A DNA stretch of 64,000 nt. Origin: a virus. Below, piece after piece: positions 1,322 to 57,480 of this stretch. Within the stretch, counting starts at the first letter, position 1, and each line of letters starts with the position of its first letter. The DNA lies in the IMG/VR virus record IMGVR_UViG_3300032286_000710, positions 62,001 to 126,000 of that record. The stretch is one strand, 5' to 3'. Below the pieces are notes generated by a model. The model was not told the origin of the DNA and made no database searches. It worked only from the letters and a program-made list of their open reading frames with translations. Made by a program: the position numbers and the translations under genes.

Positions 1322-2027
1322 ACAAACCAGTTGTAAAAACTGTATATTTGCTATCTATGAAGATAACACACAGGTTGGGTGTGAAGATAATAGGGTTTCC
1401 AAATTTGGGGATTTAGTTATAGAAGCCTATGATGATTCAAAAGAGTTTTATGTAATAAACAGGCTATGTAATCTCTATAGAAATATTAAGTGGAATGATG
1501 GAATAAAAGACGTATCCAAAGCTAAGAAAGAGTCTTGCCTGAGTTTTGACGTATTAATAGATTGTGACGATATAAATGATCAGTATAGGAATAAAATCAT
1601 AGAAGAGATTAGCAAGTTAGACTATCCTAAAGAAAAATGCGTAATATCTCTTTTTCAATCTTATACTTGCGATAAGACCCAAAGAGAAGAAGCGATAGGT
1701 ATTCATGCCCATCATCCTACTACTAATTTATCGGTTTACTTCGACAGGACAGATTACATACATTCATTCCTATCAAAATCTAGGAATTCATTTCATTTAA
1801 TATTGAATAAAAACAACATAGATAATTTTTCTAATTTTATCATCAGTGTTGACAAATTAGTGAATGATGATCTAAAAAGATTTATTTTGTGTAAGGGTGA
1901 CAATAAGCTTACAATATCTAATACAGCCTGTAGAATTATATATCAAAATTTATATTCAGAATATGAAAATAATGTTGCTATTATGATAGAAGATGCTAAA
2001 AAGGAAAATTTATATATTGAGCTTTAA
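1293..2027 (+). CDS. Cys4-motif protein with possible glycosyltransferase region
   Basis: This 244-residue protein starts within the end of the preceding gene. AAGGA eight bases upstream of the ATG at 1293 supports that start over the in-frame ATG at 1302. The N-terminus holds CKNC at residues 14-17, then a Cys near residue 30 (VGCEDNR) and another near 59 (LCNLYRN), a spacing that suggests a small metal or Fe-S site. I associate this type of Cys4 segment with proteins found among phage and environmental glycosyltransferase genes. The remainder has alternating strand and helix character compatible with a GT-A fold, but no clear DxD motif, so catalysis is not shown. Placement between a methyltransferase-like protein and a nucleotidyltransferase-like protein supports a role in glycan synthesis. 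Confidence 0.45.
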   Translation: MNYMPPDPTKQTSCKNCIFAIYEDNTQVGCEDNRVSKFGDLVIEAYDDSKEFYVINRLCNLYRNIKWNDGIKDVSKAKKESCLSFDVLIDCDDINDQYRNKIIEEISKLDYPKEKCVISLFQSYTCDKTQREEAIGIHAHHPTTNLSVYFDRTDYIHSFLSKSRNSFHLILNKNNIDNFSNFIISVDKLVNDDLKRFILCKGDNKLTISNTACRIIYQNLYSEYENNVAIMIEDAKKENLYIEL

Positions 2028-2028
2028 G

Positions 2029-2805
2029 ATGTCTAAAACAAGAACAAAAAAGAACAACAAGATAAAAACTGTTCCAGTTTCAATAAAAGAAGATAAAGTA
2101 CTAGCAGACTTAATAAGCATAGTCATTTTATGCGACTTGCCGGGATATAGAATGAAATCTTATGGCCCAACGTCGCTAGTTAGCATAAACAACAAATGTC
2201 TAATCGACTTACAAATAGATGCCATAAAAAAGACTTTTTCAAACTACGAGATAATACTATGTGTCGGATTTGATTCAGAAAAAATATACAAATATATTAG
2301 ATCAAAATATAAAAACATAAATATCAGATTGGTTGAAAACCAAATATTTAACTCTTGCAACTCATGTGAGGGTGCTAGGTTAGCTATAAATAATACGCTT
2401 AATGACAAAATATTGATATTGGACGGGAGCCTATTGATTCATAAGAAAACCCTTATTAATATAGATACAACTAAAATATGTGCTCTAATAGAAAAACACC
2501 CATCTGAAAATCTAGAAGTTGGTATAAACATAAATTCTGAAAACAAAGCACAACATTTTTCATTTGGTGCTTATAGAACTTGGTCGGAACTAATATATAT
2601 AAGTGGAATAGACGCAATAGAGAATATAAGAAAATTTCTGAATAATGACGAGAGTAAAAAGAAGTTTATCTTTGAGGCTATGAACGATCTTTTAAAGAAT
2701 AAATATGAAATTCTTTGCATAGAGAACAAGTTTCCAATTTATAAAATAAGCAATATTAAGACATATCATAACATAAAGGACAACCATGAAATTTTTAATA
2801 TCTAA
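2029..2805 (+). CDS. Sugar-1-phosphate nucleotidyltransferase-like protein
   Basis: About 258 residues from the ATG at 2029, one base after the preceding stop; an in-frame ATG at 1993 would add 12 residues inside the previous gene, and neither has a strong ribosome site. Early in the protein, LISIVILCDLPGYRMKSYG then SINNKCLIDLQIDAIKK follows the order of the NTP_transferase (GlmU/RfbA-like) N-terminal domain: first strand, nucleotide-loop region, conserved Lys/Leu strand. LILDGSLLIHKKTLINI about 120 residues later matches the metal-binding strand, although the usual Asp pair is reduced. The glycine-rich signature loop (GxGxR) is degenerate, so activity is uncertain. The likely role is making or handling a nucleotide sugar for the neighbouring glycosyltransferases. 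Confidence 0.5.
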   Translation: MSKTRTKKNNKIKTVPVSIKEDKVLADLISIVILCDLPGYRMKSYGPTSLVSINNKCLIDLQIDAIKKTFSNYEIILCVGFDSEKIYKYIRSKYKNINIRLVENQIFNSCNSCEGARLAINNTLNDKILILDGSLLIHKKTLINIDTTKICALIEKHPSENLEVGININSENKAQHFSFGAYRTWSELIYISGIDAIENIRKFLNNDESKKKFIFEAMNDLLKNKYEILCIENKFPIYKISNIKTYHNIKDNHEIFNI

Positions 2806-3595
2806 TTACAGCAACCCTTGGAATACTGAGCCTTATTATTTCAATGGTGGATTAAATTTGCTAGAGGGTGTAAGCTCTGAAATGTTTAACAATAATCAAA
2901 GTGCATATGACAACTTTGATGCAGTTAACCCCGATATTTTTATAACCCACCTAGCTCATATTACCAAAGATATTGTTTCTTACCTTAGTGACAATAAGAA
3001 AGTACATCCCATCATTAATACAAATTGGACTAAATTAGATAATATAAATGGCGTTTGCTCTGCCCTGTTATCGCAAAATATAACACCTATTTTCTTTGGT
3101 TTTAATGACATCAAGGTAGATAATGCTAAATATTTTAGGATATTGCCGGGAGCAGATACTTTTCTAAAAAATGACACCAAGCAGTACTCTATTAATAAAT
3201 TAATTTTTGTTAATAAACAAGAAGAAATTGTAGATCTTGATGGAACATACCACTACGCAACTATAAACCAAGAAGTGTCACAATATGTTGATATTTTTTT
3301 ACCCATTACATTGTTGAACAATATCTTTGACAACTATGACGAGATAGTTTTTAAAAATAGCCTCTACATTGGATCTCAGCTATCTTTTAATGCTATATAT
3401 AGTGGAACTAAGGTTATATTTGACACAAAGGATTCAAATGACTTAGACAAGATAGATAATATATTTAAAGGGCAAAAACTATTATCCTCTGTTAAAAATA
3501 AACATACATGTTTGCACAGGGTGAAGTCGCTGTTATCACAACTGTCTTTATCAGATTTGGCCCATAAGATGGAGGACGAAATAAACAAATCATGA
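2786..3595 (+). CDS. Unknown protein of the glycan cluster
   Basis: A 269-residue protein I do not recognise firmly. It overlaps the upstream gene by 20 bases and the downstream GT2 gene by 4 (ATGA), so it is embedded in the operon. It is rich in Asn, Asp, Ile and Lys, has no signal peptide or membrane segment, and shows regular alternation of hydrophobic strands (FDAVNPDIFITHLAHI, NITPIFFGFND, SLYIGSQLSFNAIYSGTKV) that would suit a Rossmann-like or GT-B-like fold. Such proteins often sit beside nucleotidyltransferase-like and GT2 genes in phage glycan islands. A glycosyltransferase or sugar-handling role is a guess from context only. Confidence 0.45.
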   Translation: MKFLISNYSNPWNTEPYYFNGGLNLLEGVSSEMFNNNQSAYDNFDAVNPDIFITHLAHITKDIVSYLSDNKKVHPIINTNWTKLDNINGVCSALLSQNITPIFFGFNDIKVDNAKYFRILPGADTFLKNDTKQYSINKLIFVNKQEEIVDLDGTYHYATINQEVSQYVDIFLPITLLNNIFDNYDEIVFKNSLYIGSQLSFNAIYSGTKVIFDTKDSNDLDKIDNIFKGQKLLSSVKNKHTCLHRVKSLLSQLSLSDLAHKMEDEINKS

Positions 3596-4329
3596 GCGTA
3601 ACAGTCATACTTAACGGTTATAGAAGACCGCAGGCTTTAAGAGAGCAATATGATGCTATAAAGAATCAAACCCATAAGGACATTAAAGTAATGTTCTGGG
3701 GCAATTATAATGAGGAAACATTCAATCTATTTCCACCAGAAGTTCTATCTCAATGCACTACCGCTTTTTGTAACGAGAACCTTGGTGTATGGGCTAGATT
3801 TGCTTTTGCTTTGAATGCAAATACTAAATATATTTGTATGATTGATGATGATACCATACCGGGAAAGAAATGGATAGAACATTGTCTCAATGTATCTCAG
3901 ACCACTAATGGATTAATAGGTGGTCGAGGAGTAAGATTTACTGATAGTGATTATGCTAATTATCCCGGTTGTAAATATGAGGGGGTTGGCAAAGGCAACA
4001 AAGAAATAAAGAGAGTAGATATAATAGGTCACTCATGGTTTTTTGAAAAAGATTGGCTAAGATTTTACTGGTTAGATATGCCAAATGTTCAGCTTCTTTC
4101 TGGAGGCGAAGATATGCATTTTTCTTACGTCTTACAAAAGAGATTAGGATTGTACTCTTACATACCCCCACAGCCAGAGGATGATCCAGACTTTTGGGCA
4201 TCCAAAAATCCCAGCAAGTATGGAGAAGACATGGTTGCTACTTCAAGAACATCGTCTGGTCATATGCAAGCAAATAGTTATTGGAATTTTATGCTTTCTC
4301 AAGGATATAAACTGGCAAAGGATTCATGA
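3592..4329 (+). CDS. GT2-family glycosyltransferase
   Basis: A 245-residue GT-A glycosyltransferase. The N-terminus (MSVTVILNGYRRPQALREQY) is the classic first strand and helix of family 2 enzymes, followed by IKNQTHKDIKVMFWGN and an ENLGVWARFAFALN segment. MIDDDTIPGKKWIE near residues 83-96 supplies the DxD metal and nucleotide-sugar binding motif. GGEDMHFSYVLQKRLG near residues 165-180 is the usual catalytic-base region (GxED). It has no membrane helices, so it works as a soluble cytoplasmic transferase. Start and end overlap both neighbours by 4 bases, indicating translational coupling with the epimerase that follows. The donor may be the sugar made by that epimerase, but this is inference. 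Confidence 0.85.
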   Translation: MSVTVILNGYRRPQALREQYDAIKNQTHKDIKVMFWGNYNEETFNLFPPEVLSQCTTAFCNENLGVWARFAFALNANTKYICMIDDDTIPGKKWIEHCLNVSQTTNGLIGGRGVRFTDSDYANYPGCKYEGVGKGNKEIKRVDIIGHSWFFEKDWLRFYWLDMPNVQLLSGGEDMHFSYVLQKRLGLYSYIPPQPEDDPDFWASKNPSKYGEDMVATSRTSSGHMQANSYWNFMLSQGYKLAKDS

Positions 4330-5327
4330 TGTTACTTATAGCATTTGGCACTAGACCAGAATGGATTAAAATTAAGCCAGTGGTAGATAAAATCAATGGT
4401 AAAATTCCATTTAGACTACTCTGCACTGGTCAGCATAGTTCACTAATAGATGATAGTTTAAAACAATACTCTTTGTCTTATTTGAAGATACAAGATCAAG
4501 TAGCAAATAGATTGGATTCTATTGTTACCAGTATTTTAAATCAGGTGGATGATTATTTAGATGATATAACACACGTGATGATTCAAGGAGATACTACTTC
4601 CGCTTTTGCTATAGCGTTAGCAGCATTCCATAGAAAATTAAAAATAATTCATTTAGAAGCTGGGTTACGAAGTTGGGACAAAAATAATCCATATCCAGAA
4701 GAATTTAATAGAATTTCTATAGGATCTATGGCAGACATTCATTTATGTCCAACATTACAGTGCAAAGAAAATTTAAGAAAAATAAAGAGCATGTGGAGTT
4801 CACCCTTTGTTGTTGGAAATACTGTTTTAGATAATTTAGTAAATATAGAACCAAGTTTAAGTAATATGGTTTTTGTTACTATGCACAGGCGTGAAAACAT
4901 ACAATTAATAGATAAATGGTTTACAGTAATAAATAATCTAGCTATTTCTCACCCAGAATTAAAATTTGTATTTCCTATGCATCCAAATCCAGAAATAAGA
5001 AAGCATAAAGAGTTGCTCACTCATGTAGAAGCAATCGACCCGCTACCATATATTCAATGTTTAGACTATATTGCTAAATGTGGATTAGTTATAACTGATA
5101 GTGGTGGATTGCAGGAAGAATCCGCTTTTTTGAAAAAGAAATGCATAGTTTGTAGGCTAACCACAGAAAGAACAGAGGGAGAACATACATTCTCAGAGTT
5201 GTGCTATGAGCCAGATATGCTTGAAGAAATATTCAATAGAACAAAAATAGAATTAGTGGATGCTCCATGTCCATATGGAGATGGGAAATCTAGTGAAAAA
5301 ATACTAAAAATCTTGGAGAATCTATGA
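4326..5327 (+). CDS. wecB: UDP-N-acetylglucosamine 2-epimerase (non-hydrolysing, WecB-type)
   Basis: This 333-residue protein converts UDP-GlcNAc to UDP-ManNAc. The N-terminal FGTRPEWIKIKPV is the standard opening of the family. MIQGDTTSAFAIALAAF, the active-site segment HLEAGLRSWDKNNPYPEE, and NRISIGSMADIHLCPT follow in the expected order. VTMHRRENI, FPMHPNP and ITDSGGLQEESAFLKKK are the C-terminal UDP-binding motifs. Length is slightly under the usual 370 or so residues because several loops are short. All main catalytic motifs appear intact. Phages use such enzymes to supply sugars for capsular-like, lipopolysaccharide or virion glycans. It overlaps the neighbouring genes by 4 bases at both ends. 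Confidence 0.9.
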   Translation: MMLLIAFGTRPEWIKIKPVVDKINGKIPFRLLCTGQHSSLIDDSLKQYSLSYLKIQDQVANRLDSIVTSILNQVDDYLDDITHVMIQGDTTSAFAIALAAFHRKLKIIHLEAGLRSWDKNNPYPEEFNRISIGSMADIHLCPTLQCKENLRKIKSMWSSPFVVGNTVLDNLVNIEPSLSNMVFVTMHRRENIQLIDKWFTVINNLAISHPELKFVFPMHPNPEIRKHKELLTHVEAIDPLPYIQCLDYIAKCGLVITDSGGLQEESAFLKKKCIVCRLTTERTEGEHTFSELCYEPDMLEEIFNRTKIELVDAPCPYGDGKSSEKILKILENL

Positions 5328-6043
5328 AGAATTTTAGAAGTGACTTAATTACCTTCAAGGAAAAAATAAAAAACAAACAAAACTTTAGCTTTTCAAAGTA
5401 TGCTGATGGTGAATGGGCGGTCATACAGAATAAGCCATTAAACAATGGTGAATTTTGGTTTAATCCAGACGATCCAGAAGATCAGAAAAAGAGACAAGCA
5501 CTAATAGATTCATTTCAGTATAAACACCCTAACTATTATGTTGGAATTTCTTGTCCATGTTGCCAAGGAATAGATACTTTTAATGAAATGTATGATTTTT
5601 CTGGTCAAAACGATAACCATTTAACTTGGGCCAATCTATGGGTTAATAGCAATTATAATTATTATGTAAGCAACATATTGCCTCTTTATAAAGAGCGTTC
5701 AGTGGTTCTTTTCTGTAATAAAAATGCTACCGTAGAGAGGTTGCCATTTAGACCACATGTTATATTTCGTGTTGAGAATAATGCTTGGGCATATAATTGG
5801 GATGCAATATCATCCGCTAAAAAAATGATATCTAAGTTAACAGAAAAAAATGTACTTTTCTTGTTTTGTTGTGGTCCTTTTGGTAATATACTATGTCACG
5901 AATTAACGAATTATTGTGACGAACACACCTATTTAGATATAGGATCAACGCTTAATCCTTTCCTACAATCTGCTGGATTTGAACGACATTATTATATGGG
6001 AAACAATATTTTTTCAAATCTAACATGCTCTTGGGGAAAATAA
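5324..6043 (+). CDS. GT-D-fold (DUF1792-like) glycosyltransferase candidate
   Basis: The 239-residue product has FSFSKYADGEWAVIQ near residues 21-35, which resembles the (F)SRxGDGE signature of the GT-D glycosyltransferase fold first described for DUF1792 proteins. Further hallmarks are a VLFLFCCGPFGNILCHELT segment near residues 177-195 and YLDIGSTLNPF near 204-214, corresponding to the late strands and the conserved Asp-Gly-Ser-like loop. A pair of Cys-containing motifs (CPCCQG near residue 77) is unusual. It follows the WecB gene with a 4-base overlap. It likely adds a further sugar in the same glycan, but the donor is unknown. Family placement is by motif recognition alone. Confidence 0.6.
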   Translation: MKNFRSDLITFKEKIKNKQNFSFSKYADGEWAVIQNKPLNNGEFWFNPDDPEDQKKRQALIDSFQYKHPNYYVGISCPCCQGIDTFNEMYDFSGQNDNHLTWANLWVNSNYNYYVSNILPLYKERSVVLFCNKNATVERLPFRPHVIFRVENNAWAYNWDAISSAKKMISKLTEKNVLFLFCCGPFGNILCHELTNYCDEHTYLDIGSTLNPFLQSAGFERHYYMGNNIFSNLTCSWGK

Positions 6044-46577: not shown

Positions 46578-47096
46578 TTAATATCTGAAATAGCCGCCTC
46601 TAGAATCATAATCACCGTGGGTTCTAACAACGTAGTCACTAGCTGGACTATAGGGGCCAAGAATGGCATGTCCAACTATGCTACCACCAGCACGGTAATC
46701 TAGTAGTAGTTTAGCATATTTATCAGAGAGGTCTTTGTATAAAACTGATAGGGTAGAGGCTACTCCCCTTAAGTCTATAGCAGAGGGTCCATCTTTGATA
46801 GAGATTGCATTTGAAGCTTCGGTCTTTAGTTCACTACCAATTATAATACAAGCAGTTTTTAATGCAGTTAAATTAATAAAAGCATTATCTTTATCCCCAG
46901 CAGTTGGGTCTGGCGAAAGATCACCGTTGGCAATATCTATAAAATAAGAATTAGTAAAATCCGTTTCTATAGTTAGCATTTGTGCGCTAACGAGAATAGA
47001 TGTTTCTATCCTATCATCAGAATATTTGTAATTAGATGGTTCTAGGTCATTGATTAAATGCCTGACCATTAACGGTATCTGGCTTCTCCAAGACAT
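46578..47096 (-). CDS. Head-tail connector / neck protein candidate
   Basis: A 172-residue protein beginning MSWRSQIPLMVRHLINDLEP. The motif DRIETSILVSAQMLTIETDF, then NGDLSPDPTAGDKDNAFINL and LKTACIIIGSELKTEA, is a helical bundle layout like head-completion adaptors that bind under the portal; I have seen close patterns in structural proteins of aquatic phages. AGGSIVGHAILGPYSPASDY near the end is strongly conserved in that group. It has its own candidate promoter (47134-47144). Connector role is inferred. Confidence 0.55.
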   Translation of the reverse strand: MSWRSQIPLMVRHLINDLEPSNYKYSDDRIETSILVSAQMLTIETDFTNSYFIDIANGDLSPDPTAGDKDNAFINLTALKTACIIIGSELKTEASNAISIKDGPSAIDLRGVASTLSVLYKDLSDKYAKLLLDYRAGGSIVGHAILGPYSPASDYVVRTHGDYDSRGGYFRY

Positions 47097-47147: not shown

Positions 47148-47750
47148 CTAGATAGTATCTAGATCTTCGTCGTTTTCTGGAACCGGCTCATTTGCTAGCA
47201 ATTTGCGGGATTTTTTAATGGCTCGACCCACCAATAACTTACCTAAAGCATCCATAAATGGAAGACCCCTTCTACTAGCCTCTTCACGAAGCCACCCAAC
47301 CACAGTGTCCATATTTTGCTCACACCAATCATTTCCATGCTCATTCATTTCTAGGGCATGACGTTTACATGAGCAACTATCTGTCATTTGAATTCCAACA
47401 CTTTTAATCATTTTAGAAAGAATAGTGCCGGGGTGATTGGGGTGTTCTTCTAAGGTCTTTGGGTAAAGTGAACGTATATATTTGGCAGGGTCATCGCCAA
47501 GCATACTTTCTATCTTTTGTTCAGCCTGAGATTTAGTCCAATCTCCAATTAAATCATAATCTGATCCACTCCAAATAACCATATTGATTGGTAAAGAAAG
47601 CATTTGGACAGAAATGGTCTTTGAAGTTGGATTATCCATAAAGATGAAGTTTAATTGATCAAATTTAACCTCTGGTGGATTAATAATCTTTCCAGAGTTA
47701 TCTGAATATGGTGGGGGGTTAATAGTAATTTGATTTTTTAAAGTAATCAT
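47148..47750 (-). CDS. Cys-motif protein of unknown function
   Basis: A 200-residue protein. The C-terminal half carries HPGTILSKMIKSVGIQMTDS, CSCKRHALEMNEHGNDWCEQ and MDTVVGWLREEASRRGLPFM. This CxC...MNxxG...C arrangement with a following WLREEA helix is shared by unannotated proteins in many phages and some bacteria; the three Cys and a His could bind metal. The N-terminal half has MLSLPINMVIWSGSDYDLIG. A GAAAGGAAA ribosome site lies in the 69-base gap upstream. Function unknown; it separates the adhesin island from the neck genes. Confidence 0.55.
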   Translation of the reverse strand: MITLKNQITINPPPYSDNSGKIINPPEVKFDQLNFIFMDNPTSKTISVQMLSLPINMVIWSGSDYDLIGDWTKSQAEQKIESMLGDDPAKYIRSLYPKTLEEHPNHPGTILSKMIKSVGIQMTDSCSCKRHALEMNEHGNDWCEQNMDTVVGWLREEASRRGLPFMDALGKLLVGRAIKKSRKLLANEPVPENDEDLDTI

Positions 47751-47819: not shown

Positions 47820-50800
47820 TTAACTAGCACAATCACAAGGTGAATTACCAATGTTAGACTGAGTAAAACCATCTAGAGTACAACATCTACATCTACCACC
47901 ATACTGATTGATGCACTCACCGTAAGTAATATCCCAAGTTTCTCCACCGCACCAAAGCTCACAATTGCTGTAAAATCCTTCTGGCGGGTCGCCAGTATAG
48001 TTACATGGAACCCATGAGCGGCCACCAAATACGGGATCTTCGTACCAACCCCGGAACTCTGGTTGGGAAATAGTACCGGCAGTCTTACAGGTTCCATTAC
48101 AGCATATTTCATTTGTAAAACATGTAGAATTACCACAAGGAATCTTGCATATTCTATAAACTCTTCCAGTAGCAGCATCTGTGATAGTAGAACAAACTTG
48201 ACCGGGAGGACAGCAATTACCATCACAACAAGTATAATTAGCTGGACAACAATTACCTTCACAGCATGTTTCCCCAGCCTTACACTTATTTACACACTCA
48301 TTATTTACACATTGCAGACATTTCTCACTATTGCAGCATTGTCCTCCGCAGCAAGGAGCAACTTGCGCACATCTATCTACACAATTACCACTTATGCATT
48401 CTTGACAAGTCGCAGCATTACACGGTGGATCACAAGGAACTGGTGGTGGATCGGGAGTAACTACGGGTATACAACTTCCAGCACTAGGTGGACAACACTG
48501 ACCACCAGTTAAACTCCATCCACATGGACAACAAGTTGGGGCTGAACTAGAACCTCCGACTTTACACAAGTTTGCAGTAGCACACGGGTCTATGGTTGGA
48601 GGGGCAGAAGTTGTTACAGCGGGAGTTGTTGTTACTTGTGATGTTGTAGTAGCTTGTGACGTAGTTGTGGCTGACGGAGTTGTAACAACAATGGGTGTAG
48701 TTGTGGCTTGTGGGGTTGTTGTAACTTGTGAAGTTGTGCTAGTACTAGTGCTTGTTGTGGTACTAGTAGTGGTGCTAGTAGTTGTAGTAACACATTCATA
48801 ATATTCACAATGTCTAGCATCGTATAATTTATTAATTGTGCCATTGCATTCTGTTGGAGGTTGTACCGCTATGCAACTTTTAGGATTACATATCCAATCA
48901 GCAATACAGGTTCCATAAAAGTTCATTATTTTATCTGGAGGAATTACATCATTATTTTGATCATAACATGGGCCAGCTGGTTGATCTGGTTCTTTTGGGC
49001 AATATAAATTAACATTACAATCTATATAAGAATTATCGCAAGTAGAAAATATTCTAAGTTTAACACTTGGTGGATTTCCAACAGATGCTGTTGATGGGAT
49101 AACAATATTAGTAGGATCATTAGATTCTGCCCCTATAGATATCTCATTTGGTCCAGATCCAACTATTGCCCGAACATTAGTATTTGCTGAAATACGAATA
49201 GTAATGTTTGTGTTTGGACTATTTCCACCAATGCCCAATCCGTAATTTCCAGAAGGCGGTGGATCAGGACATGCTAGAGGCGCACAAGTTGTAGTAGCTC
49301 TAGGAGTTGTGGTAACAACTTGTCTGGTAGTTGTGGTAGTTGTATATGGGGGGTTACTTGTTGTACTAGTACTTGTGCTTGTAGAAGTACTAGTAGAAGT
49401 ACTTGTGCTAGTTGTTGTGGAAGTACTTGTACTTGTTGTGGTAGTTGGATTTACTATGTCACATCCCAAACTGTATATACAATGTTTTATACAGAATTGA
49501 TCAAAAAATTCTTCAATCAAACTGCCGCACAGTGGATATGTTGGCGGGCAAAAAGCTGGTCTACAAGTTGTGCTAGTAGATGTAGAAGTACTAGTACCAG
49601 TTGTAGAAGTTCCAGTAGTCGAGGTGCTAGTACTGGTACTGGTAGAAGTGCTTGTGCTAGTTCCTGTTGTAGAAGTACTAGTACTAGTGGAAGTACTTGT
49701 GCTGGTGGTCGTTGGAGCAATTGTTGTCGTTGTGGTTGTTGTAAATGGAATAGTAAAAGTTATTGTATTTGATAAAGTATCTAAAGATATTGGAGTATTT
49801 CCAATTATGATAGTACCAGCTGGAAGATGAGATATAAAATAATCTAAAGCGTTAGATGACACAATTTGAGATGTTGTATTACCGTTAGAATCTTGAGTTA
49901 CAACTAAACATCCAATATTATCTTGATAATCTGTAGTTATTCTAATTATATAAGTGCCATCTGGCAAATTAGTAAAAGTATATGAGGGGTCTGTTGTTAC
50001 AACCGGACTGCTCCAAGTTAATCCACCATCGCTAGATATTTCTATTATATATACTGGTGTTCCACCACCAGTTGTGCCACCGCCGGTTGGTAATTCCCAT
50101 GTAATTGTTCCACTATTAGGACTAGTTGGGGTTACTATAACATTAACAACTGGGCCGATTTGAACAGTATTAATAGTAAAACTATTACTATATCCATTAG
50201 TACCATCAACGCTAGATACTATTCCAGTAATTCTGACTATGTATATTCCATCGGAAAGATCTTTTATAAGTTGACTATTCAATGCTGTTGTTGATATATT
50301 AGTCCAAGTCTGGCCGTTATTATTAGATATATCTACTCTATAAGAAGTACCACCACTAGAATCAAAAACGTCCCAAGTAACTAAAACGTCGTTTATATCG
50401 ACATGTTTAATCTGTATTCCAGTTATTGGGTCTAGTTTTCTGTCTTGTGGGCAAGGAACATCAATATTTTTAGATGATGGAGATAAGCTTATGCTTGGAG
50501 AACCACCACAACAATTTAAATCGTAAGAACAAATACTTTTAATTGATACCAAAAGTTTTTTGTTAAATAGATTGGTTGCGATAGATTTACAATCTTGAAC
50601 TACTATTTTTTCGTCCTGTAATAAACTTATATTTTCAAATCCAAACACTGTATCAGATAAATACTGTTTTATGGAAACCTGTATAGAGTTTGTTAAGCTG
50701 ACTGTAAGTGGGAACTTTTTATCCCAAAATATTTCAAGTCCAGTAATTACAATATTACCATTAATTTTACATTTTTCAGAAGTTGTTATAAATTCTTGAC

Positions 50801-50939
50801 CATTATTTAGAGTACTGTCCTCATTATGAACAAGTTTAAGAATAATCTCACCCTGAGTGTGCAGCACCCTTAAGCCAAGTCCATATTCTGAATACTTGGT
50901 TCCTTTAGGTATTAATATTGATCCGCATGGACAATTCAT
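47820..50939 (-). CDS. Multi-domain adhesin: Fn3-like, mucin-like linkers, Cys-rich C-terminus
   Basis: A 1039-residue protein. Residues about 172-260 and 262-345 look like two fibronectin type III domains (VLVTWDVFDSSGGTSYRVDI and GTITWELPTGGG, each with a DGxYIxRIT strand). Three Thr/Ser blocks follow (about 400-458, 499-552 and 718-779) separating small Cys-containing modules. Residues 786-1037 are extremely Cys-rich, with CCGGQCCNSEKCLQCVNNEC and CCEGNCCPANYTCCDGNCC type repeats recalling granulin-like or knottin modules. The start overlaps the upstream gene by 4 bases. There is no signal peptide, consistent with a virion protein rather than a secreted one. It is likely an extended stalk and tip adhesin. 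Disulfide formation would have to occur outside the host cytoplasm. Confidence 0.65.
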   Translation of the reverse strand: MNCPCGSILIPKGTKYSEYGLGLRVLHTQGEIILKLVHNEDSTLNNGQEFITTSEKCKINGNIVITGLEIFWDKKFPLTVSLTNSIQVSIKQYLSDTVFGFENISLLQDEKIVVQDCKSIATNLFNKKLLVSIKSICSYDLNCCGGSPSISLSPSSKNIDVPCPQDRKLDPITGIQIKHVDINDVLVTWDVFDSSGGTSYRVDISNNNGQTWTNISTTALNSQLIKDLSDGIYIVRITGIVSSVDGTNGYSNSFTINTVQIGPVVNVIVTPTSPNSGTITWELPTGGGTTGGGTPVYIIEISSDGGLTWSSPVVTTDPSYTFTNLPDGTYIIRITTDYQDNIGCLVVTQDSNGNTTSQIVSSNALDYFISHLPAGTIIIGNTPISLDTLSNTITFTIPFTTTTTTTIAPTTTSTSTSTSTSTSTTGTSTSTSTSTSTSTSTTGTSTTGTSTSTSTSTTCRPAFCPPTYPLCGSLIEEFFDQFCIKHCIYSLGCDIVNPTTTTSTSTSTTTSTSTSTSTSTSTSTSTTSNPPYTTTTTTRQVVTTTPRATTTCAPLACPDPPPSGNYGLGIGGNSPNTNITIRISANTNVRAIVGSGPNEISIGAESNDPTNIVIPSTASVGNPPSVKLRIFSTCDNSYIDCNVNLYCPKEPDQPAGPCYDQNNDVIPPDKIMNFYGTCIADWICNPKSCIAVQPPTECNGTINKLYDARHCEYYECVTTTTSTTTSTTTSTSTSTTSQVTTTPQATTTPIVVTTPSATTTSQATTTSQVTTTPAVTTSAPPTIDPCATANLCKVGGSSSAPTCCPCGWSLTGGQCCPPSAGSCIPVVTPDPPPVPCDPPCNAATCQECISGNCVDRCAQVAPCCGGQCCNSEKCLQCVNNECVNKCKAGETCCEGNCCPANYTCCDGNCCPPGQVCSTITDAATGRVYRICKIPCGNSTCFTNEICCNGTCKTAGTISQPEFRGWYEDPVFGGRSWVPCNYTGDPPEGFYSNCELWCGGETWDITYGECINQYGGRCRCCTLDGFTQSNIGNSPCDCAS
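48603..48788 (-). repeat. Thr/Ser/Pro mucin-like block 3
   Basis: Encodes about 62 residues of the adhesin, starting with TTTSTTTSTTTSTST and changing to TTTPQATTTP and SQVTTTP units. It is the most Pro-containing block and lies just before the Cys-rich end. Confidence 0.85.
49287..49445 (-). repeat. Thr/Ser mucin-like block 2
   Basis: Encodes about 53 residues, mainly alternating Thr and Ser, then a TTTTTTRQVVTTTPRATTT section. Codons for both residues are mixed, so the DNA is a degenerate rather than perfect repeat. Confidence 0.88.
49566..49742 (-). repeat. Thr/Ser mucin-like block 1
   Basis: Encodes about 59 residues following the second Fn3-like domain, starting as a Thr run and continuing as alternating Ser/Thr with TTGTST punctuation. 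The same TTGTST unit recurs in the neighbouring 311-residue protein. Confidence 0.9.
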
Positions 50940-51439
50940 ATTGAGTACTTCTTATTATGTTTATTTAAGATATTTATGTATTTTGATGCTGATTCCAAAT
51001 TTTGCTTTGATGTGTGATAAATTATACATTTTTTGACAGAATCTATATATTCCCCTTCTGAGAGAATAGTAACTATATTATTAAAAAAAGCATGTTTAAT
51101 TTGATTGCTTTTGTTAAAATTGTAATCTACAAATAATGCATCGTGAATAAATATTTCAATTGTTTTTTCTTTTACGAGCAAAACTATCCTATCCAATGAA
51201 TATAAAGATTTAAAATTAATATCAAAGTATTCCTTTAAATATCTATACAGTTTTTTAAAATTTGTTATAGATGGATTTATTAATAGATCTATATCTTTAG
51301 TGTGTTCGCATAAGTTATATATTTTTCCAACCTCACTACCAATAAGTACAAAATTAACATCAAAAGAACGTAATGATGATATTACTTCTTCTACAGATAG
51401 AATTAATTTAGTTTTATTTTTGTAAATTTGTGATGACAT
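50936..51439 (-). CDS. Nucleotidyltransferase-fold protein
   Basis: A 167-residue protein between two mucin-like adhesin genes, overlapping one by 1 base and the other by 4. VNFVLIGSEVGKIYNLCEHT followed by KDIDLLINPS (Gly34-Ser35, Asp49, Asp51) is the GS...DxD motif of the Pol-beta-type nucleotidyltransferase superfamily (MNT, DUF6036 and AbiEii-like). LDRIVLLVKEKTIEIFIHDA supplies the third strand where the last Asp is normally found. It is rich in Lys, Ile and Asn, unlike its Thr/Ser-rich neighbours. It could modify a protein or RNA by adding a nucleotide, or act as an antitoxin-like factor. No HEPN partner gene is adjacent. Confidence 0.55.
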   Translation of the reverse strand: MSSQIYKNKTKLILSVEEVISSLRSFDVNFVLIGSEVGKIYNLCEHTKDIDLLINPSITNFKKLYRYLKEYFDINFKSLYSLDRIVLLVKEKTIEIFIHDALFVDYNFNKSNQIKHAFFNNIVTILSEGEYIDSVKKCIIYHTSKQNLESASKYINILNKHNKKYSI

Positions 51440-52374
51440 TAAAATTTAAATATTCCCATATTGAACGAAGAAGCCTGTGGATTTGATGGCGTTACAGGAA
51501 GAAGCAAACAAGCATTTGCGCCACAAACCCATCCAAAATATGGACAACATACCATATAAGACCCATTAGATGAACACTCAGAACTACCGGGGGGACATTC
51601 GCAAACGTTTCCAGAACAACAAGCACCATGACCATTATCAGTATATCCCGGTGGACAATTGGGTGGTGGTGGAGTTGGGGGTGAGGTAGTGGTGGTGCTA
51701 GTACCAGTAGTACTAGTGCCGGTGGTCGAGGTGCTAGTACCAGTAGTAGAAGTTCCAGTAGTTGAAGTGCTAGTACCAGTGGTAGAAGTGCTGGTACTGG
51801 TTGAAGTACCGGTGGTGGAAGTACTGGTGCTGGTTGAAGTGCTGGTGCTAGTACCAGTTGTTGAAGTATTAGTAGTAGAAGTTCCAGTAGTGGAGGTGCT
51901 GGTGCTTGTACTAGTACTTGTGGATGTACTAGTGCTAGTGCTAGTAGTAGTTGTACTACACGGTAAAACATTCACCCCTAAAGAAAAATTAGCACTACTA
52001 AGCACTGATCCTATTAAATTATTAGCAGTTACAGTAACGCTATAACTTCTTTGAGTTGCATTAGTATAATTAAAATATAACCCACTACTACTGATATCAA
52101 AAAAGTTTTTGTCGTTTCCAGATAGATTTAATGAATATGGTTCACATCCAATATTATTGATTAATATAGTAGATATTTTAGTAAATAGATTACTTAACTT
52201 CTTGTACTTAGGAGTAAACTGATAAAGACTATCTTTTTCTGGACATGGAACATTATTCTTTGGCAAGACAAAAAAATCAATATCTTCTGGAGATAATGTG
52301 GTGGTAGTTACCGGTTCTGCATAAGTTAAATATGGTGCTGGCTGTTTGAAGCACGGGTCATTTGGTCTGCCCAT
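51439..52374 (-). CDS. Virion protein with long mucin-like Thr/Ser stalk
   Basis: A 311-residue protein starting at the ATG at 52374, with AAAGGA seven bases upstream and 12 bases after the previous stop; an ATG 11 codons earlier overlaps the preceding gene and lacks a site. Residues about 40-138 form a beta domain (FTPKYKKLSNLFTKISTILI, then SYSVTVTANNLIGSVLSSAN) like a cadherin or Ig-type fold. Residues about 140-231 are almost wholly Thr/Ser/Gly. A Pro run (PPTPPPPNCPPGY) leads to a Cys-rich end with CCSGNVCECPPGSSECSSNG. The layout of fold, mucin-like stalk and Cys-rich tip matches the 1039-residue adhesin downstream. Confidence 0.65.
   Translation of the reverse strand: MGRPNDPCFKQPAPYLTYAEPVTTTTLSPEDIDFFVLPKNNVPCPEKDSLYQFTPKYKKLSNLFTKISTILINNIGCEPYSLNLSGNDKNFFDISSSGLYFNYTNATQRSYSVTVTANNLIGSVLSSANFSLGVNVLPCSTTTTSTSTSTSTSTSTSTSTSTTGTSTTNTSTTGTSTSTSTSTSTSTTGTSTSTSTSTTGTSTSTTGTSTTGTSTSTTGTSTTGTSTTTTSPPTPPPPNCPPGYTDNGHGACCSGNVCECPPGSSECSSNGSYMVCCPYFGWVCGANACLLLPVTPSNPQASSFNMGIFKF
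51682..51957 (-). repeat. Long Thr/Ser mucin-like block
   Basis: Encodes about 92 residues built from alternating Ser/Thr and TTGTST units. Ser is written with AGT, AGC, TCT and TCA, and Thr with several ACN codons, so the protein pattern is kept while the DNA has drifted. The opposite strand therefore shows long but spurious Val/Leu-rich frames. Confidence 0.92.
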
Positions 52375-52385
52375 AGATATATCCT

Positions 52386-55300
52386 TTAATGATTGCAGCA
52401 GACGCAAGCTGTATCGCTAGCACTCACCCATATTGGTTTATATTCATCGTTAACTCTAGCAGCTATTACATAAGCTCCAGAATGAATAACAGAAGTTGTA
52501 TCTCTGTTGGTAATATAAATACTTCCAATATTTGCCCAGCTAGCATCTTTAGATATTAAAATACCACTGGTTTTAGAAGAAGAATTTACTGGGGCTTGCA
52601 AACCATTTGGCATAAAACCTTCAATAAAAGTACTATTTATTTTGGCTATACCACTATTGGCTAGAGCTATACCACTATTCCCAAGAGCTATTCCGCTATT
52701 AGCCAGATTGGTAGCATATGGAATTCCGCTAGATGTATTGAGGGAAGTTCCATCACTAAATCTTACAAAACCTTGTAATCTTAAATCCCCATTAAGTTGA
52801 GCGTATGGTCTTGATGAGCCATCATAAGATACTGTATTTATAAGTGGTGAAGCATTGTGGCTAAGAGTAAATAGATCTGCCGAGTTATTTCCACTAAATT
52901 TGAAAGTTAAAGTATTGTCTGGATAGTTATTACCACCGCTATCAATAACTTCAATGACATTAGCCTTTAAACATAAGCTATCAGAGTCATTTGCATTATT
53001 GATATACAATCTTCCGCCGCTTGGCAAAGTAAGTCGCTTGTCAGTGTTTGTCGGTCCAAGTTTACCATCTAATAATACAAGCCCATTATTACCTACTAAG
53101 AAATTATGTGATCCACTATTGCTAGCACCAATATTGTGACCAATAATTATGTTGCCGCTGGTATTAGCTAAATCGGCAGTTTTATTAAATGATTTGTTAC
53201 CAATGATAATATTATTGGATGTATTATTTAATCCGCTAGCAGATGACTCACCAATTACAATATTGTTGTTTCCTGACGATAGATTATATAAGGAATCATA
53301 ACCCATAGCAAAATTGCCAGAGCCAGATAAAATACTATAAAGAGCTTGATAACCATAAGAAATATTGTTTTTGGTTGCGCCTGTTATAGCTTTTCTTCCA
53401 GATGGAGATAAATATCCAGCAAAAGTATTACCGTTAGTGTCAGTATAAACGGCCCTACCATCTACATTATCTAGCTTATTAACAACTAAATCTGTAGAGT
53501 TGCCAGAGCCATCCATAAAATATAATGAATTGTATTGATTGGCAAATCCCTTTTCTGCTCTTAAATTATATAGTTTACCATAACCGCCGGATGGGTTTAC
53601 AGTTGAATCACCAACCCCTAGGCTATCTTTTAAGCTTATAACTGGTAGTTTAGCAATACCGCTATGTCCAATTGTGATTGTAGCGTTTGTAATTCCACTA
53701 GAAAGTATACCAATCTCGTTTGTATCTTTCATTCTAATGAAATTAGTAGCATTAGAATTCTTATATATAATTACATCAGCAATGCCGCTATTGTTTAGAT
53801 ATGCAATTTCTACGCCGCTGGCTTCACAGTTTTCTCTTGCTAATAATTGAATAGCGGCTTTATAATATCCAGTATTTTCAGTAGTAAATCTACCGATACA
53901 ATGAGTTGAGGATCTAGCATTGAAAATAGTTTTTGGTAAAACATTTTCTGTAACAGAAGCTATATTCGTAACTCCCATCACAGACCCATCTTGATCGTTT
54001 TTCATAACGACCAAACCGTTTATAAACTTAGAGGTACGATCATATGATCCTACTACTAGCCTATCTGTAAGCGGGCCTATTATTCCTAAATTGGAATCGT
54101 CAATGTATTTAATTTCAAATCCACTTAGCTTATCTTTGTTGCTATTTAATGAATCTTTTTGTCTAACCTTTGTGCCTGTTAAGAACCTTTGACTAACACT
54201 AACGCCAGATTCAATAGACGATACCGACATAACATAATTTGTCAACTCGCCAGAGTTAGATAAGAAGTTTACATTACCAATACCAGCTAGAACTCCATCA
54301 GATGCACCGGGATTTGATCCTAAAACATTCTTTCTAGATATGTAGCTTATACCACTATTAAAGAATAGTCCATAGCAATCGTTGTTACTAACTCCGCTAT
54401 CATTATAAGAAATAAAACTATTGGCTTGGATATAGGCTGTACTTGGGACTTGAAAACTAGTATTGGTTCTGAAGGTAGATTTTTCGTATTCACCAACAAA
54501 GCATGGCATACCAGAACTTGGTGGATAGTAAGATAGAGTATACTGCCTACTATTAGTAGACTTTAATATCAAACCGCCGCCCGATAATCCTGTGTCTGAA
54601 TATAATGGATTAAGTTCATTATTAGTGCCTAAATATAAGTATATTCCACTATAGTTTTGAGTATTAACGATTACACGGTTGTTAATGGTAGCAGTACCAT
54701 CTACAATAATATCTTGAAAATAACCTCTAGACCATTTTCTACCTGCTGCACCAAGATCATATGTAGAGTTAAGGGCTGGTAAAAATGATCCTCTATTAGC
54801 TATACTATAAGTCGTATCTTGGTATAAAGATGTACCATTAGAGAAATCAATAGATCTAGATAAAAATAATGTTCTCCAATTATATAATATATGACCTAGA
54901 TTTAATACGGCATTACCAGACGGTGTTATATCTCCACCAACTTGAAGCTTACCGTATGAATGTAAGCTTTTAACCCCGACGCCTAATTGTATTGTTGATA
55001 GGTCGCCGTATACTAACGGAGTTAAACCAGAGCCATTCGGGTTACTGCAAATATAACTTCCATCAACAGGATGGTAAGCAATGAATAGCTTGTTGCTAGT
55101 ATTTTTATCAACATAATATCCAGCACCATGACCAATAGCAATGTTGCCATTACCAGACTTATTATTATGTAGAGTATAGTTGCCAAGCCCAAGATTTAAA
55201 TTACCGACAGTGTTGCCAGCAAGGGCATAATAACCCAACGCAACATTACTTTGACCATAGATATTGCAAGATAAAGAATATGATCCAACAGCAGTATTTT

Positions 55301-55592
55301 TAGCACTCTGATAGCTGGATTTTAATGTAGAGAAGCCAATAGCAGTATTATCTTGACTAGAATATCCAGCTAACGCAATGTTTTCTAAAGTTAACTGACC
55401 AACTTTAGTATTTCCGTCTGAAAATGTTGCAAGATTAAGAGATGTTAAATTTTGAGATGAGGTAAGATTATGAACAGAATCTATTATATCTAATAAATTA
55501 TGTCTAATGTCGTAGGGGGATATTTGACCATATGATTGATCAGATATCTCACTGTTAATATTATTTACAAGTTGAGACTTGCTTAATATCAT
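52386..55592 (-). CDS. Tail fibre with YadA-like head repeats
   Basis: A 1068-residue protein. Residues 1-48 (SKSQLVNNINSEISDQSYG, ISPYDIRHNLLDIIDSVHNL) share the docking N-terminus of the 313-residue fibre gene. Residues about 82-160 contain NTAIGFSTL, NTAVGSYSL, NVALGYYAL, NLNLGLGNYTL and NIAIGHGAG, a left-handed repeat of the YadA/trimeric autotransporter head type. A second set, YGYQALYSILSGSGNFAMG and NNIIIGNKSF, lies in the final third. ANSGIALGNSGIALANSGIA before the end looks like a trimeric coil. It ends CVCCNH. It probably forms a trimeric, calcium-free stalk fibre for receptor binding. Confidence 0.72.
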   Translation of the reverse strand: MILSKSQLVNNINSEISDQSYGQISPYDIRHNLLDIIDSVHNLTSSQNLTSLNLATFSDGNTKVGQLTLENIALAGYSSQDNTAIGFSTLKSSYQSAKNTAVGSYSLSCNIYGQSNVALGYYALAGNTVGNLNLGLGNYTLHNNKSGNGNIAIGHGAGYYVDKNTSNKLFIAYHPVDGSYICSNPNGSGLTPLVYGDLSTIQLGVGVKSLHSYGKLQVGGDITPSGNAVLNLGHILYNWRTLFLSRSIDFSNGTSLYQDTTYSIANRGSFLPALNSTYDLGAAGRKWSRGYFQDIIVDGTATINNRVIVNTQNYSGIYLYLGTNNELNPLYSDTGLSGGGLILKSTNSRQYTLSYYPPSSGMPCFVGEYEKSTFRTNTSFQVPSTAYIQANSFISYNDSGVSNNDCYGLFFNSGISYISRKNVLGSNPGASDGVLAGIGNVNFLSNSGELTNYVMSVSSIESGVSVSQRFLTGTKVRQKDSLNSNKDKLSGFEIKYIDDSNLGIIGPLTDRLVVGSYDRTSKFINGLVVMKNDQDGSVMGVTNIASVTENVLPKTIFNARSSTHCIGRFTTENTGYYKAAIQLLARENCEASGVEIAYLNNSGIADVIIYKNSNATNFIRMKDTNEIGILSSGITNATITIGHSGIAKLPVISLKDSLGVGDSTVNPSGGYGKLYNLRAEKGFANQYNSLYFMDGSGNSTDLVVNKLDNVDGRAVYTDTNGNTFAGYLSPSGRKAITGATKNNISYGYQALYSILSGSGNFAMGYDSLYNLSSGNNNIVIGESSASGLNNTSNNIIIGNKSFNKTADLANTSGNIIIGHNIGASNSGSHNFLVGNNGLVLLDGKLGPTNTDKRLTLPSGGRLYINNANDSDSLCLKANVIEVIDSGGNNYPDNTLTFKFSGNNSADLFTLSHNASPLINTVSYDGSSRPYAQLNGDLRLQGFVRFSDGTSLNTSSGIPYATNLANSGIALGNSGIALANSGIAKINSTFIEGFMPNGLQAPVNSSSKTSGILISKDASWANIGSIYITNRDTTSVIHSGAYVIAARVNDEYKPIWVSASDTACVCCNH

Positions 55593-55607: not shown

Positions 55608-56354
55608 CTATTTTAGACTAATTTCTAACGAATTTGCATCAAACCTTATGTTGTCTCCAAGGTAAACATATCGTGGGTTAGTTAACTTAGCATACATTAG
55701 CAAGTTGCCAGAACCTACAGTTTCATGATCTAAAATAGCTATACCAGAAACCCAGCCCCATTCAGTAAACGCAGAGTTAAATACCATCTGGTTTTTATTT
55801 CTGATAAATCCATTGCCTTCATAATCTGGGTAGCTAGATTTAAGAGTAACTCCAGACTGAAAAATATTTGTGCCTTGAGGAGCAAAAAAAGTTACAGATG
55901 GAAATTCTTTAGCAAATGTATATACTATTGCTGATCCATTGCCACCTTTTGAGGTGCTATAATCTTTTGCGGCCTGCTCGTTTATGAACATTGGATAGAA
56001 ATATCCATACTCTGGCTGTGTACTAAAAGTAACAACCCCATTAGTACCAATAGTGCCACTAGCTTTTACTCCAGATACGCTATATGCTGTGGTAACATCA
56101 ACTCCAACTGAATTCCAAGTATTATCACCGCTAGTAGCTGGTGGTCCCAAAACAATTCTTTTATAATTCGTTGTAACAAAATTTAAACCATTAGCTACTC
56201 CAGACGCTAATTCTGGTATGGTAGAGCCAGTATCAGAATCGGCTGGAACACCGCTTGTTAAAGCAATTGCTATTGTAGAAGGTCTGGGGAAAGCGGTATT
56301 TCTAAATATATGACTCAATAAGCCAGACTCAAGATAATCCGATAGTGCGGCCAT
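55608..56354 (-). CDS. Virion protein, fibre/adhesin-associated
   Basis: A 248-residue protein beginning MAALSDYLESGLLSHIFRNT and continuing with FPRPSTIAIALTSGVPADSD. This opening, and a later MVFNSAFTEWGWVSGIAILD with GNLLMYAKLTNPRYVYLGDN, follows a widespread phage structural family in which a small N-terminal helix is followed by a beta sandwich; a long insertion (residues about 70-190) is present here. It lies directly after the major capsid protein behind its own promoter candidate and AGGAG site. Role in the virion is uncertain. Confidence 0.6.
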   Translation of the reverse strand: MAALSDYLESGLLSHIFRNTAFPRPSTIAIALTSGVPADSDTGSTIPELASGVANGLNFVTTNYKRIVLGPPATSGDNTWNSVGVDVTTAYSVSGVKASGTIGTNGVVTFSTQPEYGYFYPMFINEQAAKDYSTSKGGNGSAIVYTFAKEFPSVTFFAPQGTNIFQSGVTLKSSYPDYEGNGFIRNKNQMVFNSAFTEWGWVSGIAILDHETVGSGNLLMYAKLTNPRYVYLGDNIRFDANSLEISLK

Positions 56355-56469: not shown

Positions 56470-57480
56470 TTAGAATGAGCCAAGGATCACTCTACGATTA
56501 TCTAGAACACCAAAGCCAAGTTCAGCCCAGCCGTAATAGCCAGCTCTTTGCTGACGATGTAGGGCTGGATCTTCGAATACCTGTAGCTGTTGCTTAACGG
56601 GCATTACGAAGCTATCACCCATAGACTGATCAATACCAACTACGAGTTCAACGTCACCGCCGGTTGCTAATGAGCCACCAAGATCAGATGTGAAGAAGCT
56701 CTGGTACTGTTGACCTTCGCCTAGTTCGTCTAGGTCATGGAGGTTAACACCAAAGATTCTAGTCACAACAGAAGCGGCTGGATCAGCATTATAAATCTCA
56801 CGACGAGTAACGTCATCAACTTGATCTAGACCCCAGTTACGAATGTCTTCTAAAGCTTCTGGCGATAGATACATATCGGTTAGACGGCCACGACCAACTG
56901 ATGCCGAGTTACCACCCGAGTTTCTACGCATAACTGTCTGCATGAGTGATACTAATCTCTTTGAGAATAGACCAGCTGTTGCATCAGCATCATAGACGAG
57001 GATGTTACGATCAACGCCAGCGGCGAGAAGAGTGTGCCAGCCGTCATCGTTCATCTTCTTGGTGAAACCGGCTTCCATCACCTGCATTGCACGACCAACG
57101 ATGTCCCATCTGGCTTCGCGGGCAAAGCGAAGAAGATAGTCAACCGATGAAGCGATTGTGTAGGTGGGGATCATCACATAATCGCCTTCGACCGAACGCT
57201 CTGGAATTCTACCGTGACCGGGATTAGTGTAAGCAACATGCTCACCTTCAAGGCCGGGGGAGATAAGATCAAGAGGGAATTCGGTTGTTGAACCGGCTTC
57301 TACATTGATGGTTTCGAAAATATTACCGAGGATATTACCAACTAAAATTCCCTTACGGAGTGGGAGTTCTAGTGCTTTGGCAAACTCACGTTGAGCGGCC
57401 ATAGCCACATTGATATCGGCATCCCCTGACTTACGTAGGAGAGCGATAAAATCATCGCTAGGTCTTTCTGTTATTGGCAT
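56470..57480 (-). CDS. Major capsid protein (HK97 fold)
   Basis: A 336-residue protein that builds the icosahedral shell. It follows the protease-scaffold and decoration genes as expected. N-arm region FIALLRKSGDADINVAMAAQ is followed by LELPLRKGILVGNILGNIFE and an E-loop-like segment. The spine and P-domain include RWDIVGRAMQVMEAGFTKKM, and the A-domain includes YLSPEALEDIRNWGLDQVDD and VMPVKQQLQVFEDPALHRQQ, ending WAELGFGVLDNRRVILG. The G/C content, especially at third codon positions, is visibly higher than in neighbouring fibre genes, as in highly expressed genes. A ribosome site AAGGAG and a strong terminator flank it. Whether it is auto-crosslinked cannot be told. Confidence 0.85.
   Translation of the reverse strand: MPITERPSDDFIALLRKSGDADINVAMAAQREFAKALELPLRKGILVGNILGNIFETINVEAGSTTEFPLDLISPGLEGEHVAYTNPGHGRIPERSVEGDYVMIPTYTIASSVDYLLRFAREARWDIVGRAMQVMEAGFTKKMNDDGWHTLLAAGVDRNILVYDADATAGLFSKRLVSLMQTVMRRNSGGNSASVGRGRLTDMYLSPEALEDIRNWGLDQVDDVTRREIYNADPAASVVTRIFGVNLHDLDELGEGQQYQSFFTSDLGGSLATGGDVELVVGIDQSMGDSFVMPVKQQLQVFEDPALHRQQRAGYYGWAELGFGVLDNRRVILGSF

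Follow-up and report, generated by a model that had tools for sequence, protein, structure and literature searches.

What is a large protein that joins Fn3-like domains, Thr/Ser-rich tracts and a Cys-rich end doing among the structural genes of a phage? Such a protein is encoded on the minus strand at 47820..50939 of the window, a 64,000-nucleotide stretch covering positions 62001-126000 of the 166,604-base IMG/VR virus record IMGVR_UViG_3300032286_000710. The open reading frame (ORF) starts with ATG and encodes 1039 residues. It is reasonably likely to be a modular virion-surface adhesin composed of an anchor, a flexible or glycosylated stalk, and a disulfide-rich tip that would be oxidised after lysis, and it is referred to below as the adhesin.

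Relatives were retrieved through neighbouring genes. A scan with the major capsid protein confirmed at least 596 relatives, the best 80 of which were kept as loci L005-L084, and scans with two downstream neighbours gave 17 loci from one and the best 80 of 101 from the other. Copies located away from these neighbours would escape such a search. A direct scan of viral contigs with the Cys-rich end (residues 786-1039) found none, and its relatives came through the neighbours.

Architecture and the Cys-rich tip

An initial annotation had described Fn3-like domains, Thr/Ser blocks and a Cys-rich end with repeated CCxGxCC units, and this combination was confirmed in the 1039-residue ORF. All of its parts lie on the minus strand. 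The N-terminal anchor domain (residues 1-150; 50490..50939), delimited by profile, alignment and AlphaFold2, carries the pattern CxCG...PxG...SxC...CC. Its profile matched 34 ORFs representing 22 distinct sequences, that of the window included, some of which are truncated copies of one another; L145 is a weak member (E 5.5e-4). Across 14 sequences that are 19-85% identical to the window, residues C2, C4, G5, P10, S134 and C136 are invariant, and the first two anchor Cys are missing in L128. The AlphaFold2 model built from 14 sequences is all-beta, with blocks of predicted local distance difference test (pLDDT) scores of 72-95 over residues 1-140.

Two Fn3-like domains follow at about residues 172-260 and 262-352 (49884..50426), recognized by Foldseek and VIA. 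Pfam fn3 had no match in the adhesin sequence. The model of residues 174-352 matched Fn3 pairs (best Z 10.0), and the second domain alone (262-352) superposed over 91 residues at 2.7 A. Model confidence (pLDDT) is low in this part, and the fold comparison supports the predicted Fn3 beta-sandwich, as the initial annotation had proposed. With Foldseek, the same part matched lambda tail-tip chains and phage minor tail proteins at low TM-scores. In PHROGs the window protein had no match at E up to 0.1; the Fn3-like parts of L010 and L094 gave weak matches to a baseplate wedge family (7.8e-4 and 7.3e-5, respectively), and L094 also weakly matched a minor head protein (5.9e-3).

The N-terminus of the adhesin is not hydrophobic. 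As judged from hydropathy rather than with a dedicated predictor, the maximum over 12 residues is 0.78 in the first 40 residues, compared with 2.78 in a thioredoxin of the same phage, which bears out the earlier statement that a signal peptide is absent. This matters for the reading in which the protein is not part of the virion but leaves the infected cell by export or release, or stays within it. The NCBIfam family TIGR04183, a sorting domain of the type IX secretion system (T9SS), matched at 28.7 bits against a cut-off of 23. T9SS sorting domains are C-terminal by definition, whereas this match is internal (residues 194-238) and falls in the Fn3-like part. With a non-hydrophobic N-terminus as well, T9SS export is not supported, and since gene order places the adhesin among structural genes, a fate outside the virion is very unlikely.

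Beyond the Fn3-like domains, Thr/Ser blocks delimited by composition alternate with Cys-containing modules. Thr/Ser block 1 (residues 397-458; 49566..49751) precedes a small Cys module A (459-497; 49449..49565), defined by its similarity to L094, and block 2 (498-551; 49287..49448) precedes a middle region with 12 Cys (552-716; 48792..49286) that had no relative at E below 0.01 among the loci searched. Block 3 (717-785; 48585..48791) leads into Cys-rich module B with the CCxGxCC units (786-957; 48069..48584), which has relatives in other loci, and a C-terminal Cys module (958-1039; 47823..48068) ends the protein. The block limits are approximate; the core Thr/Ser runs span residues 410-458, 499-528 and 718-737.

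There are 73 Cys in the ORF, and 46 of them lie within the 254 residues from 786 to 1039. Cys thus makes up 18% of this distal region, compared with 0.7% of 16,133 residues drawn from 25 further ORFs on the minus strand of the window. CCxGxCC occurs at residues 863, 892 and 904, with an additional CCNGTCK at 946, and when the segment was shuffled 20,000 times, three CCxGxCC units were never reached. Relatives of module B were found in L007, L127/L126 and L128, with partial ones in L094 and L006. The window and L007 are 46% identical over 119 residues of module B (E 3.2e-18); they share 25 Cys, L007 having 26 and the window 28, and identity elsewhere is 33%. In an alignment of four phages, 19 of 26 ungapped Cys columns were conserved, compared with 11 of 80 other columns. 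L094 matches less well, with 9 of its 12 Cys paired. Module A is 55% identical to L094 over 42 residues, where all four L094 Cys are common to both and the window has six. Over its last 82 residues the adhesin has a weak match (E 0.004) to the end of L127's other cassette protein; within the aligned part all eight window Cys pair with Cys, and L127 has ten. Cys is retained far better than other residues, which argues that the tip is a real domain and, as far as alignments can tell, probably a disulfide-stabilised one. One CCxGxCC segment is gapped in L127 and L128, suggesting that these units act as indel-prone repeats.

The tip had also been called granulin-like, and this label was not supported. 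Residues 781-1039 matched no Pfam family with E values up to 10, a three-sequence profile of the Cys region had no match in the PDB up to E 10, and NCBIfam and PHROGs had no match to it. Granulin, knottin and known Cys-rich families were set aside on the strength of these searches, and the granulin (PF00396) signature is absent from four proteins. A marginal SH3 match in the PDB (E 0.046), covering residues 177-204 of a segment of 259 residues, was judged to be chance. A granulin would show beta hairpins stacked and linked by disulfides; the tip model, with a mean pLDDT of 55, has short strand pairs and pLDDT blocks of 83 at best; Foldseek gave a best E of 0.47 with EGF-type proteins leading, and VIA-align found none at Z of at least 2.

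Clustered Cys could instead bind zinc or a similar metal within the reducing cell, in which case the protein would still belong to the virion and need no oxidation. The retained Cys clusters and the missing signal peptide fit this reading, as does a CxC..H..C motif in the conserved neighbour 47148-47750, but the Cys region matched no family, zinc-binding or other, and the CCxGxCC spacing, rich in Pro/Gly, together with hairpins predicted to be short, resembles disulfide-rich modules in a way that is suggestive only. Metal binding is accordingly rated as rather improbable.

Exchange of modules in related phages

The place occupied by the adhesin, bordered by a fibre gene (52386-55592) and by the neighbour 47148-47750, is called the cassette here. 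Eighty-two loci were examined for its content, namely the 80 capsid loci, L094 and L096. The 52 that reach the fibre-gene end plus at least 400 bases beyond were retained and the remaining 30 left out; many of the examined intervals run off their locus. The anchor domain was found in 17 of the 52, Cys-rich or Thr/Ser-rich ORFs without the anchor in 11, and neither in 24. Proteins of one kind or another are thus present in 28/52 loci and the full combination in nine, so the earlier statement that such a mosaic is rare in phages does not hold within this lineage. A downstream marker closed 27 intervals, 12 of which contain no ORF. Six of these are firm cases, closed directly by a homologue of 46578-47096 (L008, L009, L012, L014, L043 and L044), and correspond to three pairs of near-identical contigs; the other six are closed by a looser marker. 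From these ORF-free intervals and the varied content of the rest, the cassette is accessory and highly variable.

In L010, the nearest relative, residues 1-409 are 89% identical to the window, the two Fn3-like domains being 83% and 98% identical, but the tip is a different one, and no match to module B was found at E up to 1. In L007 the N-terminal domain is only 49% identical, yet module B is common with the window. As judged from these comparisons, the modules behind the anchor are exchanged between related phages, and the adhesin is one of a family of proteins shuffled in this way within a lineage of uncultured phages. In L006, an FGE-sulfatase-type domain lies between the Thr/Ser tracts (E 1.2e-19, above the cut-off). 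This domain is presumably akin to the C-type lectin fold of phage variable proteins, and a lectin-like module at this place would favour ligand binding. Other cassette proteins reach 1823 residues with 121 Cys (L045) and 1368 residues with 126 Cys (L079).

Several observations concern further Cys-rich proteins in these loci. Five cassette proteins (L068:15922-18282, L070:14530-16996, L079:16001-20107, L080:11624-13684 and L084:11117-13018) hold a stretch of 142-144 residues, from CF(I/T) to HNC, resembling a mini-intein/Hint domain. All three of the stretches scanned gave Hint-type Pfam matches, each below the cut-off, and the maturation of these proteins may involve splicing or cleavage. A 1790-residue protein with 158 Cys and repeated GACC-type modules (L175:232-5604) lies beside a fibre gene like 52386-55592. 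In a remoter phage group, nine proteins with 8-15% Cys end in two hydrophobic residues and Pro (LLP, LIP, IVP, FLP or IIP). They are encoded at L101:4758-5753, 6183-7052, 7062-7901 and 11088-12140, at L104:5718-7064, 7086-7919 and 11466-12614, and at L107:10901-11845 and 13492-14337. Among 1108 distinct ORFs with 110 residues or more, 12 have such an end, the remaining three being a copy in L105, a 566-residue protein in L109 and one low-Cys ORF in L106. No other ORF of at least 150 residues in L101, L104 or L107 ends this way. The pattern may represent a shared C-terminal tag; given the kinship of the three phages, the cases do not count as independent, and the window adhesins do not end in this way.

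Thr/Ser tracts and candidate modifying enzymes

Among the 43 window ORFs tabulated, only the adhesin and the neighbouring ORF 51439-52407 reach 37 Thr/Ser in 40 residues; the third-highest density is 18 per 40. The description of these tracts as mucin-like therefore stands for their composition. Their codons are mixed, with 11 different Thr-Ser dicodons in the adhesin and 13 in the neighbour, and Thr-codon entropy is 1.52 bits within the tracts and 1.48 outside. Such mixing shows that the tracts are kept at the protein level and are not just the product of DNA slippage. In sister phages, tract length varies and composition is retained. One related protein (L006:16542-17813) contains an array like a variable number tandem repeat, with eighteen exact TTTTVAP repeats before a small Cys module.

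Composition of this kind makes O-glycosylation of the stalk possible, and sugar genes are present on the plus strand of the window (66..6043): GT1 (66-908) and GT2 (3592-4329) glycosyltransferases, a UDP-GlcNAc 2-epimerase (4326-5327), and a GT-D-like gene (5324-6043) at E 0.027, below the cut-off. Their distribution was followed over 17 or 19 records, which may be fragments. GT1 was found in 11/17 and GT2 in 10/17, including both in G008 (L044), where the cassette is absent, and GT1 in G010 (L051), where the visible cassette part has no Thr/Ser run. The epimerase was found in six of 19 records, five over the cut-off, and is missing from that of L006, whose adhesin has Thr/Ser runs. Because these genes are not restricted to Thr/Ser-bearing cassettes, a glycosylation link was dropped, and the label of a phage mucin is unproven.

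The same distribution bears on a reading in which the virus makes a mucin outright, with tracts densely O-glycosylated by phage enzymes to form a glycan coat or decoy instead of a specific adhesin. Glycosylated virions are reported for mycobacteriophages, with glycans on capsid and tail-tube subunits, as cited in PMC12619734. Even with the three sugar genes in the window and tracts kept at the amino-acid level, GT1 and GT2 in a phage with no cassette, GT1 beside a visible cassette part with no Thr/Ser run, and the patchy epimerase make this reading doubtful.

Enzymes that could form disulfides were considered in the same way for the favoured adhesin. The record of the window (G000) encodes a thioredoxin-fold protein (L085:12184-12525) that has a WCKYC site and begins with a signal-like stretch, and thioredoxin was found in 10/19 records, every copy having an N-terminus that looks hydrophobic by eye. 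The records of L068 and L035, whose cassettes are Cys-rich, yielded none, and neither did those of L007 and L094 (pieces of 90 and 64 kb), and it is present in that of L051, where the visible cassette part has no Cys-rich ORF. Thioredoxin distribution does not track Cys-rich cassettes and was therefore given little weight, and the link to a disulfide enzyme was rejected. Glutaredoxin gave matches at E up to 0.001 in 4/19 records, none over the cut-off and all at the thioredoxin places, and Erv/Alr matched in 0/19 records, where the control also matched nowhere. The same record also encodes a trypsin-like protein (L085:15630-16433) with a GDSGG motif and a signal-like N-terminus (by eye).

Gene setting and proposed role

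The structural operon on the minus strand runs from the capsid gene through head fibre-like and fibre genes, 51439-52407, 50936-51439, the adhesin, 47148-47750 and 46578-47096 to further genes. The major capsid protein (56470..57480) was assigned from phrog_2522 (1.2e-4) and the major head protein of Bacillus phage G (23%, 5e-8), and the head fibre-like protein (55608..56354) from Pfam Gp80 (podophage GP4 fiber I, 1.7e-22) and phrog_240. The fibre or virion structural protein at the cassette border (52386..55592) matches phrog_6002 (3.4e-27) and phrog_4636 (1.2e-14) and is placed by synteny. The conserved neighbour with the CxC..H..C motif (47148..47750) forms the other border. It was rejected as a dedicated helper of Cys proteins, as its copy in L097-L100 lies upstream of the capsid gene, in a listed stretch without a Cys-rich ORF. 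The next gene (46578..47096), without a family match, is a probable head-tail connector, and 45624-46565 matches a tail-fibre family. The adhesin gene thus sits between capsid and fibre genes and downstream tail genes, and some relatives have no cassette at this place.

Inside the cassette, homologues identify a second protein (51439..52374) with an N-terminal domain, a Thr/Ser block of 86 residues in two runs, and a Cys-rich end. Its ORF is listed from 52407 (TTG), but homologues in L007, L094, L096 and L127 begin at the Met of MGR, which makes 52374 the likely start. Compared with L010, its C-terminal end keeps 10/10 Cys and is 51% identical elsewhere. In L038, a single ORF holds the anchor domain together with a match to the N-terminus of this protein (41% over 58 residues, E 2.4e-7), and L025 and L029 resemble it by eye; the two genes of the window may therefore be split or duplicated parts of one cassette. 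Between them lies a nucleotidyltransferase-like ORF (50936..51439) with conserved G and DxD residues. G34, D49 and D51 are invariant in five aligned sequences, in which L006 equals L121 and a third is 83% like the window. This putative domain is separate in the window and L010 and fused to the ends of T-rich/Cys proteins in L006/L121 (L006:16542-17813) and L178 (L178:7873-8928). Its Pfam nucleotidyltransferase matches are all sub-threshold, with unrelated sub-threshold families scoring equally, and its scan found a sister phage alone.

The initial proposal of a mosaic phage adhesin is likely, and is supported by the architecture, the structural-gene setting, the conserved anchor and the variable distal end. 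In the favoured model, the conserved N-terminal beta domain would dock the protein on the particle near the head-neck region, with the Fn3-like domains and Thr/Ser-rich tracts serving as a spacer. The distal Cys-rich modules would fold and become cross-linked by disulfides once the virion exits the reducing cytoplasm, and the cross-linked tip may then bind a surface ligand. The tip would be the exchanged part: between related phages the anchor stays the same, whereas one Cys module is traded for another or a lectin-like module takes its place.

Several points weigh against this adhesin model. Location on the virion is drawn from gene order and family hints, and the constant place of the gene is partly built in by retrieval through neighbours. 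The model of the tip has low confidence and no structural match, and Cys retention is compatible with metal binding as well. Glycosyltransferase genes are present also where the visible cassette part has no Thr/Ser run. Searches of a phage collection found no cultured relative, with no match to the whole protein or to module B (E up to 1) and a single chance-level match to the N-terminal domain (E 0.7). The capsid protein matched in just four contigs of metagenome-assembled genomes, each from a different taxon (SAR202, Alphaproteobacteria, Chitinophagia and Flavobacteriales; genome contigs with two peptide patterns), and assignment of a host on this basis was dropped for want of consistency.

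Among known systems, phage fibres and receptor-binding proteins that are modular and contain Fn3/Ig-like domains share a conserved virion-proximal domain, an Fn3-like spacer and a variable distal part, and differ in that the Thr/Ser tracts and Cys-rich tips are features of the adhesin itself. Animal mucins and granulins similarly place Thr/Ser-rich tracts beside Cys-rich modules, but no homology, granulin match or signature was found. Folding after lysis, as initially suggested, is plausible by analogy with Agrobacterium phages Milano (PMC10811340) and 7-7-1 (PMC12796354), whose virions show extensive disulfide networks by electron cryo-microscopy and hence disulfides usable in phage particles. 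According to the same accounts, these networks sit in the sheath, baseplate and (in 7-7-1) capsid, and Cys makes up 2.1% of Milano structural proteins, as opposed to 18% in one distal region, the putative tip, of the adhesin. Moraphages, as described in PMC12619734, are also large aquatic metagenomic phages with several glycosyltransferases; they use a family B DNA polymerase, while the present record has a polymerase III alpha-like gene and family B was not searched for. This gene, as read (L087:13611-17470, G000), is apparently split into ORFs of 541 and 533 residues with an exonuclease-like ORF between them, and its first part matched a phage gene annotated as DNA polymerase. No such phage protein is described in the titles and abstract openings searched, a limited coverage that does not prove absence from print.

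A more far-reaching reading would make these proteins true virus-encoded mucin-type glycoproteins, with self-glycosylated Thr/Ser stalks, exchangeable disulfide tips oxidised with the exported phage thioredoxin, a nucleotidyltransferase modifying the adhesin or its glycans, and mini-intein-like inserts maturing related versions; it is considered unlikely. If the adhesin model is true, a phage lineage widespread in metagenomes would attach to hosts or particles not with the usual fibre folds but with stalks resembling mucins and Cys-rich tips that can be exchanged. How disulfide-rich domains mature in a virus whose assembly takes place in a reducing cytoplasm would become testable, and the naturally swapped tips would provide a set for studying attachment in the environment.

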